This document shows, in pieces, positions 40,601-55,600 of a DNA stretch of 64,000 nt (positions are counted from its first letter, which is position 1; the number at the start of each line of letters is the position of its first letter). The notes below the pieces were generated by a model. That model saw only the letters and a list, made by a program, of their open reading frames with translations. It did not search any database and was not told the origin of the DNA. Made by a program: the position numbers and the translations under genes. The DNA is taken from the NCBI RefSeq assembly GCF_965363235.1, contig NC_134838.1:5399001-5463000 (forward strand), given 5' to 3'. Source of the stretch: Mytilus galloprovincialis. Its lineage: Eukaryota; Mollusca; Bivalvia; Mytilida; Mytilidae.

Positions 40601-43600
40601 AAGGAATTCAAATTATAGTTTTTTGCCTTATCAATATTCAAGTTCTTCAACATATTTAGTAGTATTTATTTATCTTGTGCCTTTTGACCACAATACCACA
40701 TGGTAAACCAGGAATCCAGTATTCAATGATATGACATACTACCAATATCTACCGAGGTGACAGAAAGAACCAAAATGACCCTTTTATTGTTGGACAAACA
40801 GACCAGCTCAAACATGAAAAAGGTGAAAATGGTGAAACTTTGGCAGCCAGGACTGACAGGTTTGACGTTTTTGCGTTGTCTGAAGTTATTGAAAAGAAAA
40901 ATCTGGAATATCCCATCTGACTATGCACTGTACTGCCCAAATTGGATTCAAATCTTCATGTGTCCATTAAGCTGACTTTTAAACGATTTGAATACAACTA
41001 CATAAATGACCTTTTACCAGTTTAATTAAAATTTAACTTCTATGTTACAATTACACTTGTCTTTGATCTATCAGTTATCATTTTAGACACTTGTGAATGA
41101 AGGCAATTGCAGTCAACATAACACTAGTGTAAAAGTTACCTTCCCATTTTTTCTTTTCGTTGATTTCTTTATTGGCCCTGATTATACCCCAGTTGACCAT
41201 AGGTGCTGCCTTTGTGTTGGATGTTGACGAGTTGCTACCAAATCCACCTCCTCCAAATCCTAAAACAAATATATTATTTAAAATAAGTAGTGTAACAACT
41301 GTATTTCTAGCCTGTCAACACGGAGGTTTATAGTTCTAACCCTGCACATGGCAAAGTCATTTATCTCCTATCTGAATTCAGTTTTCCTTCCGAAGGTCAG
41401 TCATCCTGCTAACTAGTGTGTAAACAAAAAATCTCTGTGAATTGGACATGTTTCTATTTTTAGCAAGTGACTGAGCTTAACCATCTGTGTTGATTTGGAA
41501 AGTAGAGGACCATAAAAAAAATATGTAAAAATATAGTTATTAAATATATTCGAGGTATTAAATTTTCATCGAACATATTGTGTGAAAAAAGGGGATTTTT
41601 TACCTTGAAGAGCCGCATCACAAAAGGATTTCTAGGGCATGCTAATTTAAGGGAAAATGAATCACACTTCCTACCCAAAAATTTAAACCACATATGTGAA
41701 AATGTATCAGCTTTGAAATGAGCCATCATATATAATTCCAAGTTTACAATATGGACATATGGACTGAGCTACAGAAGAAAATGTAACCATTACCACCTAT
41801 AAAGAAACAATTGCACATATTGCCCAATCTGCAATATGAACTTGACCATGTAACTTTAATCTCAATGACTGATCCATGGAATAAGGTTGAGGTTAGGTGA
41901 ACCCTACTGGATTGAAATTTAGACATTGCGAGGAACCCATTTACCAAATATAATTATCCTATTACTTATAATGAACGAATATTTCATTTAACAGCAGTTA
42001 CTGAACTATGAAAATGAGGTCAAGGACAACGAATGACAGATGGAAACTTTGTAACAGAAGTTATCTATCCACAAAATATGAAGGTCTTCTGCCTTCTTAA
42101 AATATTAAGTTTTGAAAAAATAGTTTAAGAAAATAGTCATCGCTGGGTTGTAATACCTATGTCTTTCATACTGTGACTTTCATAGAAGGAGAGACAATAA
42201 AACTTCTACTTTCATGTCATAAACAAGAATGTGTCCATAGTACACGGATTGTCCATAGTACATGGATGCCCCACTCGCACTATCATTTTGTAAGTTTGTC
42301 AGACCGTGAAATGGGGTAAAAACAAAAAATTACAGATCATATCATAGGGAACATGTGTACTAAGTTTCAAGTTGATTGGACTTCAACTTCAATCCAAAAC
42401 CACCTTGACCAAAAATTTAACCTGAAGCCAGACAGATTGACAGACAAACGAACGAACAGTTGCACAGACCGAAAAACATAATGCCCATAAATGGCATAAA
42501 AATAGTGTTAATATTCATTGAAGCATAATGCAACTGATATAATTTTGGCAAGCTGAGTGGATATTTATTATGGACCCGTCATCAACCATTAAATGTTTTG
42601 GCCTTAAGGTCATGAAAAGTGTACAATTCACATAATCATTATTTGTCAGTATCACCTGCAAGTGTCAGGCTAGTTTTGATAATCACATCTTATCGGATTA
42701 CATGTATGATAAAGGTAAACTAAATGTGATGGATTTGACTACATTTAATAAAGTGTTGTTTTTTACCATACTTATTTATCTAAAATATGGTGTCCGTCCT
42801 ACAATGAAGAACAAAGCACACACACTAGCATACTGTGGATTCATTATTATTTTTTGGATACCAATTTTTATGGATTTCGTAGGTACATGTGAACCATGAT
42901 TCAAATGTTCAACGAATAACATATTTCCAATAGGCTTTGCATACAGAGATTGACAAAACCACGAAATCAAATGTCCACAAAAATGCAAATTTTAAGCAAT
43001 CCACGAAAATTGATACCCACGAAAATAAATGAATCCACAGTACTAGATTAAAAATATGCATCAGGTTGGCATCTAGAGGTTTTAACATGTTAGATAATTT
43101 AAAAATATTGCCAACTACATGCTAGTATCCAAAATGCTTTGGAAACCATCTTGTCCAGCATAAATCAGATACATTTGCCACAATCAACATTTCATTGATC
43201 AATAATATAATGCTTACCTCCTCCCCTGCCACCACCGCCACCTCCGAAACCACCACCACCACCTCCACCAAATGACCTTGGTGGACCTCTGTCATCTTGT
43301 GTCAACTCATTGATCATTTCTTTGGCCTTTGCTATAGCATCAGGTGACCCCTCTAACTGTATTTCCTTTTGACCACTACCATCATCGTCTTTACTTATCT
43401 ATAAAGAATGATCACAGATCAAAAATCTTTTACTTTTTTCTCTTGATGCATAAATACTTCTATTTTTTACTTTCCAATAAAAATAGAAGGGAGCCCAGTG
43501 TCCAAAAAGTCTTCTAGTAGAGCAGTTAACAGATAACATACAGCTATTTTTGTTTGCAAGTTATAAGAATTTCATTAAATTGACACCACCAAAATTCAAA

Positions 43601-52600: not shown

Positions 52601-55600
52601 CCCCCACTACCAAAACCTCTATTTGAATTATCTCTTCGTCCAAAACCCCCACCGTCATCTTGTGTCAGCTCATTGATCATTTCTTTGGCCTTTGCTACAG
52701 CGTCAGGTGACCCCTCTAACTGTATTTCCTTCTGACCACTACCATCATCATCTTTACTAATCTGTAAAGAATGACCACAAACAGAAAATATTTTACTTTT
52801 CAATCTCGATACATAAATACTCCCAATTTTTTTTTTTTAATAACAAAGAATTTTCAAAGATATAGCACTAAGCCAGAAAACTCATTATGGCAAGATTTGT
52901 ACATGTGTAAGGTTGACCTCTCTCACAATTATGGAAGGAAACTGTATACTAAGGCCATACATGTCAACCTCTGACAATGGAAAATCATGTCATGACATGA
53001 CATGACATGTCAAAAAGCGTGTGAAAACGCGTGACATAGATGCGGACTTTTTTTTATAAGAATGTGGTAATGTTCATAATTTCACATACAAATTTGTTAA
53101 TATACAAAAAACAATATATATACTACTGTGAACTTTTTTGTATTAATCAGTGGTCTGTTATGCTGTTTTTAAAGCACCACCACTAGGCACATATTCAAAA
53201 CAACTGCCAGTTTCAAGTTTAGTTATATTTATTTGATAACAGCATACAACAATGTACAATATAAATGTAACATAGTCAAGTTCTGATCAGAATTCAGTGT
53301 CAATATTTCTTTATAATTGAAAATGCTCTCCCACAGTAGGAATTGATATTTGACAGAATGTCATTATGTTGTTTTTTTGGCATTGTAAAATGTCATCCAT
53401 TATCTCTGCCATTGTTCCCATTGCTATTGCCTGGTCAAAACTGGGTAGTTCATCAGAAGATAGCTGGTACTATGAGAGCTAATCCAACAGTTCTGTGATA
53501 TTTTCATCTGTAGAATCTGTTGGTTATATTTGAAACTGAAATTAAAAAGTAAAAATGTTTTATAAATTTGATTTCGATTAAATAAACATGTTAAATGGTT
53601 ATTCAAATAGCTACATTGTATTTCTCCTCTTACATGTATTGTTTTTGATCATTGCAACAAAGAATGCACAATACGTTACTTGTCACTCGATCATTAAAAC
53701 TGAACTCCAAAATATAATTTATAAACATTGTATCTTGGTACGTACACATCGTTTTGAATTAACAATCGGCGCTTTAGACGACCGTACAGGCCTGAAAGCG
53801 ACCTCTTTCTGTGCACATTTTCCCTATAAAGTGAATTTGAAAAAAAGTAACAAAATCGTTAAAACTAATCACAAACTACTTACCTTTTACTGTTGGTTCA
53901 TATAGAAAAATAAACAATATGTCAGCCAAATAATTACTTCGAAATTTTCGGTATTTATCGCCGAATAAGGAAAAAACCCGAGAATAGCGATATCACTAAC
54001 GACCACAAAGTGAAAAGAACGAAAATGCGTGTAATTGCGTGTAAAGTGTCGAAAAGCGTGTACACGCCATGTGACAAAATCCTCGCGTGTAAACCGTTGA
54101 AAAAGCGTGTATTACACGCGAATATCATGTCACTTGACATGTATGACTAAGGCTTTTCTATCTCAGAAATAGATTACATGTACCTTAGCTGTATTTGGCA
54201 AAACTTTTAGGAACTTTGGTGCTCAATGCTCTTCAACTTCGTACTTTATTTGGTCTTTTAACTTTTTTGCATTCGAGTGTCATTGATGAGTCTTTTGTAG
54301 CACATTGTGTGTTTGGCGAAAAGGTGAAATTTAATCCTGGTATCTATGATGAGTTTATTTAGTTACGGATGTTTCAAACGACAAAAAAGTAATCAAACTG
54401 ACCTTACTAAAGCACATCTTCAACATGTGTTCAATCACTGTGCAAAGTTTTAAAAATTTGAAAGAACACAGTTGGGAGTTGGAAGATGAACAACCAAATA
54501 ACTCTCTACAGCATTTAATGTTAGGTCAGTGTTTATATTTTAAGTGTAGTCTCAGCTCGCCAATGATGATTTCAGTATTAACATGTAAACTTACATTGAT
54601 TGTAGCACCAGTTTCATCCTGTAATTCCCTGATCTTTGAACCCCCTTTTCCTGTAAAAGAAAAAAAGATTAACTTCGAGGGAAAGAAGTTGATTTAAGGC
54701 TACCAAGAATTTTTACATTCGAAATTTGATTAAAGAAAACATTCATTTAGAATTGTATTTACCAATAACTCTTCCAATCTTAGATGAATCTACACGTATA
54801 GTGGGAGAATCACTTTGTCCATTTTGATCTGCATTTCGGCCAAATGACCTCTGTCCACTATCATTACTACTACCAAAGCCTCTGTTTGAATTATCCCCTC
54901 TACCAAAGCCCATCACGCCTCCTCTACCACTGAAAGAGTTTGTGTTAGTGTCTCTATTTCTCCAATTGTTGTCTTGATCAGCATTGGAAGAAAATCCTCT
55001 TCCTCTAGACTTTCCCATCCAAGTAGTGTCAGTATTCATTCTGGGCTGTAAAAATAAAATACATTTCTTACTTATGATTACATCTTATAATTCTATAAAA
55101 TTAGTTTTTATCCTTTAATTTCTTTTATTTAATTCATCTAAAAAAATGTCCATGTAGAAAATTAATACAAAATATGGTCACAAAGAAAGCTGTTGTTAGA
55201 CAATGTTAGACATGTGAAAATGACAAAACAGTATTTTCTTTAAGATGCATATTAATGAAAAATATTAAGATATTAGAAACAATGCATTTAACATATTTAA
55301 GCTTTTATCCTTTTCATGATATTCAAAAAAAAGTTTGTATTTAAAACTTATAAACAATATAAGTAACATACAATGTATAACTGAATAATTAAACATGATA
55401 AAGCTATTCCAGAAATAAATAAATTGGGGTCAGGACAGGTCACATTTTGCACATTAATTTCTGCTGATTTATAAAATACTGTAAAAGTACTTTTATTTGT
55501 GGCTATTGAATTTCTGGATTTTCAAAATTTTCTTAGAACATAGTTCACATTTCATTGGGAATTTGAATTCATGGTTGAACCCAATAACGAAAAAAACCAT

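Follow-up and report, generated by a model that had tools for sequence, protein, structure and literature searches.

DEAD-box helicases of the DDX43 family have been described with one KH domain, and the mussel locus considered here raises the question of whether a member of this family carries four, how such an array would have arisen and what it would do. Within the window, by which we mean the whole 64,000-nucleotide stretch of DNA that was analysed, the open frames and splice sites of the minus strand allow a DDX43-like gene to be assembled, running from 57667 to 10469 in 27 exons that encode 1107 amino acids free of stops, with GT-AG boundaries at all 26 introns. The model is built from genomic DNA alone, through predicted exons and frame-based joins, and two of its junctions are less certain than the rest. 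These are the junction between exons 1 and 2 and that between exons 21 and 22, at residues KKDR/FIQEE, for which the choice of donor followed the frame and the usual appearance of DEAD-box proteins. The Pfam myticin family, which belongs to mussels, has 17 matches in the same genome (best E 6.4e-24) and none in 14 prokaryote control genomes, which makes a mussel host very probable. In window coordinates the exons are:

57536 to 57667, minus strand: exon 1 (predicted), with the start codon; open frame, GT donor in phase 0.
54763 to 55045, minus strand: exon 2, linker L1, FG/RG-rich and ending in the first strand of KH1; AG/GT sites, phase 0 to 1.
54595 to 54650, minus strand: exon 3, the 56-nt exon K1, GKGG loop region of KH1; phase 1 to 0; module 1 matches KH_1 at 75.4 bits.
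52506 to 52761, minus strand: exon 4, linker L2, with the end of KH1, a 36-aa linker and the start of KH2; phase 0 to 1.
52256 to 52311, minus strand: exon 5, the 56-nt exon K2; phase 1 to 0; module 2 matches KH_1 at 75.5 bits.
48134 to 48452, minus strand: exon 6, linker L3, with the end of KH2, a 57-aa linker and the start of KH3; phase 0 to 1.
47864 to 47919, minus strand: exon 7, the 56-nt exon K3; phase 1 to 0; module 3 matches KH_1 at 75.9 bits.
46546 to 46903, minus strand: exon 8, linker L4, with the end of KH3, a 70-aa linker and the start of KH4; phase 0 to 1.
44063 to 44118, minus strand: exon 9, the 56-nt exon K4; phase 1 to 0; module 4 matches KH_1 at 76.1 bits.
43218 to 43398, minus strand: exon 10, C5, with the end of KH4 and then a glycine-rich tail; phase 0 to 1.
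39279 to 41259, minus strand: exons 11 to 13 (41140-41259, 40129-40210 and 39279-39379), separating the KH array from the helicase core; AG/GT sites, in frame.
14693 to 25043, minus strand: exons 14 to 26, the helicase core; DEAD at 160.3 bits and Helicase_C at 105.5 bits.
10469 to 10660, minus strand: exon 27, RGG-rich C-terminus and stop codon, from the exon list of the gene model.

The alternation of linker and 56-nt exons from exon 2 to exon 10, which a preliminary description of this DNA had placed at 43218-55045, is there with exact coordinates, the successive sizes being 283, 56, 256, 56, 319, 56, 358, 56 and 181 nt. The phases are as it had claimed, each of the five linker-type exons passing from phase 0 to phase 1 and each of the four 56-nt exons from phase 1 to phase 0, and the 13 residues said to close the linker exons recur unchanged in three of the four copies and as a near variant in the fourth. 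That an exon pair can be added without breaking the frame is likewise borne out, since the pairs, counted linker first, measure 339, 312, 375 and 414 nt, each a multiple of three. The splice sites of the repeated copies closely resemble one another. Single-exon cassettes were considered and rejected, as loss of a lone 56-nt exon breaks the frame and pairs alone can be dropped.

Pfam recognises KH_1 in four stretches of the protein, as expected from the four KH domains first proposed; the first begins at about residue 126, N-terminal to the helicase core, and the modules taken singly score 75.4-76.1 bits against a cut-off of 21.5. Two details of the proposal needed adjustment. The GKGG loop does lie in the 56-nt exon, except that its first glycine is split by the intron after the linker exon, and the exon pairs do repeat, but one KH domain spans three exons, starting at the end of a linker exon (first strand), running through the 56-nt exon (GKGG loop) and finishing in the first part of the linker exon that follows. 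Because of this three-exon build, each added pair adds one whole KH domain. GKGG is kept in all four modules and the domains are 92-100% identical to one another as protein, KH1 and KH3 being the same over 65 aa and agreeing at 70 of 71 positions over a slightly longer stretch. A control KH array on contig C13 of the same genome has 24-31% mutual identity in the 4 of its 12 listed matches that were compared. Among solved structures the module comes closest to FUBP2/KSRP, Nova-1 and PCBP2 (54 sequences up to E 0.01). Multi-KH proteins such as FUBP/KSRP, Nova, PCBP, IGF2BP and vigilin, which figure among these solved matches, resemble the mussel protein in containing several type I KH domains, and none of them is known to have a helicase core. 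Between the modules lie linkers of 36, 57 and 70 aa, and the first 620 residues of the protein hold 21 FG and 15 RG pairs, with a short repeat inside the linker exons:

46646 to 54910 (span), minus strand: 51-nt match family D2, eleven copies with SNRGFG-type repeats, 30 or 33 nt apart within a linker exon.

The helicase had been described as DDX43-like, and the complete RecA1 domain supports a DDX43/DDX53 type, its best match being human DDX53 (3iuy) at 318.6 bits, ahead of DBP2 (245.2), DDX5 (238.9) and DDX17 (231.4) among seven sequences of solved chains up to E 1e-60, none of those listed being DDX43 itself; the comparison with DDX53 covers the RecA1 part only. Vasa is absent from these seven. 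An incomplete join of the core exons, used as query, placed DBP2 first (233.2 bits) and DDX53 sixth (163.9 bits), a rank on which it bears that the query had two domains and the solved DDX53 chain holds RecA1 only; Vasa, at 185.2 bits, came below DBP2, DDX17 and DDX46 and above DDX53. By the complete RecA1, the core sides with DDX43/DDX53 and lies further from DDX5, DDX17 and Vasa, DDX53 being the paralogue of DDX43. Both RecA1 and RecA2 are present, through the DEAD and Helicase_C matches given above. Vasa (DDX4) shares the DEAD-box core with the mussel protein and, like it, has a glycine-rich, disordered FG/RG region; it is not known to have a KH domain. A related role in the piRNA cycle is ascribed to Vasa in PMC8025031, and PMC3499355 reports the combination of KH and DEAD domains from Bilateria and, independently, from a green alga.

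KH domains placed before the core fit DDX43, as the human and silkworm proteins also have an N-terminal KH domain with a GxxG loop, followed by a DEAD-box core. The mussel protein differs from both in having four KH domains with FG/RG-rich linkers, whereas one is present in silkworm (PMC8025031) and one in human, the latter as stated in the preliminary description and in agreement with PMC7949032. We take KH number as a difference within the DDX43 family and not as a defining trait. A second difference lies beside the GxxG loop, where the position of human Ala81, counted from the loop, is Arg in all four mussel modules, in contrast to the Ala81 reported as conserved among DDX43 orthologues in PMC7949032; because of this replacement, the base preference of the mussel KH domains may differ from that of the human domain. 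In the open-access literature on DDX43 and KH domains, molluscs, bivalves and tandem KH or exon duplication, judged for the most part by titles and the beginnings of abstracts, no report of a multi-KH DDX43 was found among the papers listed, and such a protein may already be present in mollusc sequence databases by automatic annotation. Relatives of exon 4 were sought among viruses (viral_contigs; 51 pattern matches, none confirmed) and prokaryotes (genome_contigs; 164 pattern matches, none confirmed), and as these collections are viral and prokaryotic only, the negative results are uninformative on other animals.

The introns speak most directly to how the array arose. Units 2 and 3 share intron sequence that is 85.7% identical over 496 nt, with further, weaker matches between units reaching down to 67%, and repeat families that contain intron sequence surround both exon types (D1, D3, D6-D9, D12, D13 and D15-D19 among them), two of which illustrate the pattern:

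43193 to 52788 (span), minus strand: 233-nt repeat of family D1, four copies, covering a linker exon start and flanking intron; 68-93% identical to the reference copy.
44001 to 54668 (span), minus strand: 136-nt repeat of family D3, four copies, covering a 56-nt exon and intron on both sides; 66-92% identical to the reference copy.

Homologous intron sequence between units implies that whole tandem segments were duplicated, and as the flanking introns are homologous yet diverged, the KH array is, judged on this sequence evidence, a real tandem duplication with its introns included and not an assembly error. Stretches of intron flanking the exons differ by 11-51% between units, the higher values partly reflecting poor alignment, and intron lengths range from 112 to 2427 nt after linker exons and from 664 to 3803 nt after 56-nt exons. 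Units 2 and 3 look closest to each other, because linkers 2 and 3 lack a short segment, RSFGRN.DQNGQ, that linkers 1 and 4 have, and because the intron start after these two linkers differs at 11 of 59 positions (18.6%), the minimum among the six pairs. A genome search with the KH module gave 20 matches, 12 of them at 75-95% identity and all inside the DDX43-like gene, the other 8 at 33-46% (21 of 21 candidates scored). A second locus or haplotype copy of the array was rejected, as the 75-95% matches are confined to this gene; nor was such a copy of the helicase found in the genome, matches outside the window among the best 91 of 167 candidates being at most 61% identical. The available part of PMC9063065 offers no species divergence usable for dating the duplications.

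Other features were seen within the introns of the array. At 45258-45369, between exons 8 and 9, lies an inverted repeat with 54-nt arms, 93% complementary and 4 nt apart, perhaps a small mobile element. Between exons 5 and 6 the intron holds at 48903-49776 a segment present twice, about 500 nt apart and 90-93% alike in three stretches, and at 51070-51834 on the minus strand frames with reverse-transcriptase-like words such as YLDDIL; a 173-aa part of that region, other than the YLDDIL frame, has no Pfam match above cut-off.

Comparison of the modules with one another gives dN of 0.006-0.030 and dS of 0.092-0.232. Relative to the module consensus, 12 changes leave the amino acid as it is and 7 are nonsynonymous, against an expected nonsynonymous share of 75.5% (P = 0.0004), a test that is a guide only, given the few variable sites and the shared ancestry of modules that it ignores. 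Such a bias to synonymous change points to modules that are translated and retained. Four-fold sites, pooled over the six module pairs, differ at 14 of 148 positions (9.5%), less than the flanking introns do, so that some gene conversion among modules is possible but not needed.

We put at roughly 0.6 the probability that the gene is a DDX43 orthologue with a lineage-specific KH amplification that tethers RNA with high avidity and probably does so in the piRNA pathway, the lineage-specific element being drawn solely from low divergence (dS 0.09-0.23), which gene conversion could mimic. The unit of duplication would be a 56-nt exon together with a linker exon and the accompanying introns, and the number of modules would have risen from a single ancestral one, as we infer, to four, each duplication adding a whole KH domain and a disordered FG/RG-rich linker. 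All four modules would be present in the main transcript, and the near-identical KH domains would read one short pyrimidine-rich RNA motif repeatedly, which in turn would raise affinity for, and residence time on, long single-stranded RNA. One KH domain, probably KH4 as the nearest to the core, would retain the known role in supporting ATPase activity. By homology with silkworm DDX43 the likely setting would be the piRNA cycle, in the freeing of cleaved RNA from Ago3-piRISC, and a germ-line role of the mussel gene is likewise presumed from that of its insect relative. The Arg at the Ala81 position and the sixth rank of DDX53 with the incomplete core count against this reading.

The functional part of this reading leans on two studies. 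According to PMC8025031, silkworm DDX43 frees cleaved RNA from Ago3-piRISC, its ATPase activity is abolished when the KH domain is removed and retained in a KH mutant unable to bind RNA, and RNA release fails in both mutants. The human KH domain, according to PMC7949032, prefers pyrimidines, with TTGT best, and binds longer single strands better. On the strength of these data, near-identical KH domains on flexible linkers should bind repeated motifs avidly. The multivalency for RNA that had been proposed for the four KH domains is plausible, and gains in weight from how nearly identical the modules are; such an array should engage short motifs that recur along a single long RNA, as opposed to the combined code read by diverged arrays. 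As the silkworm domain supports ATPase activity without binding RNA, additional KH domains could also act by a route other than RNA. One silkworm KH domain thus serves both RNA binding and ATPase support (PMC8025031), and a natural series of four offers a ready-made test of which role scales with KH number. The locus also shows cleanly how a domain can be amplified through an exon pair that leaves the frame intact, here in a family described with one KH.

The alternatives are not mutually exclusive. It is unlikely, though worth weighing, that the exon pairs are cassettes giving isoforms with one to four KH domains, of which a one-KH form like human DDX43 would be the main one. Any number of pairs could be skipped in frame, because they are multiples of 3 nt and the linkers share their phases, and L1 to K4 to C5 joins in frame with one KH domain. 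Against this, the splice sites are alike in all copies and none appears weak by eye, and the excess of synonymous change likewise suggests modules in use as protein and maintained. We consider it no more probable that the four-KH state is old and common to bivalves or molluscs, with gene conversion keeping the modules similar. The lower difference at four-fold sites than in flanking introns and the identity of KH1 and KH3 would suit such a history; however, the intron match between units 2 and 3 indicates a fairly recent duplication for which conversion is unneeded, and the higher intron differences owe something to poor alignment. With less conviction than either of these, we entertain an array in a piRNA helicase that has expanded recently and is perhaps still expanding, its module number varying from one mussel species or individual to another and thereby adjusting RNA avidity or condensate formation, possibly driven by conflict with transposons.

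That the expansion was neutral, a repeat-prone and frame-neutral segment having grown by unequal crossing-over to no functional effect, we regard as improbable. The linkers carry a 30-nt internal repeat that varies in number, and the region is by that token prone to repeat growth, but synonymous change is in excess and GKGG is present in all four modules. An assembly error in which duplicated haplotypes made the extra copies has next to no likelihood and was rejected, as the modules' exons are indeed very similar but introns and linkers differ in length between units, widely so for the introns, and intron homology is only partial.

Returning to the amplified DDX43-like gene, the 14.2-kb intron that precedes its helicase core contains at 33286-34245 on the minus strand a stop-free frame of 319 aa, conceivably a nested gene, of which a 282-aa part gives no Pfam match at E up to 0.1. 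A long-period tandem repeat with two open frames lies between exons 15 and 16, in the intron (22705-23406, minus strand). About 1.9 kb past the stop codon, on the plus strand at 8049-8616, there is a minisatellite of about 42 nt (AKIPQGWQCTKYSH frame), and an acidic open frame with tryptophan at 854-1423, also on the plus strand, is perhaps the end of an adjoining gene.
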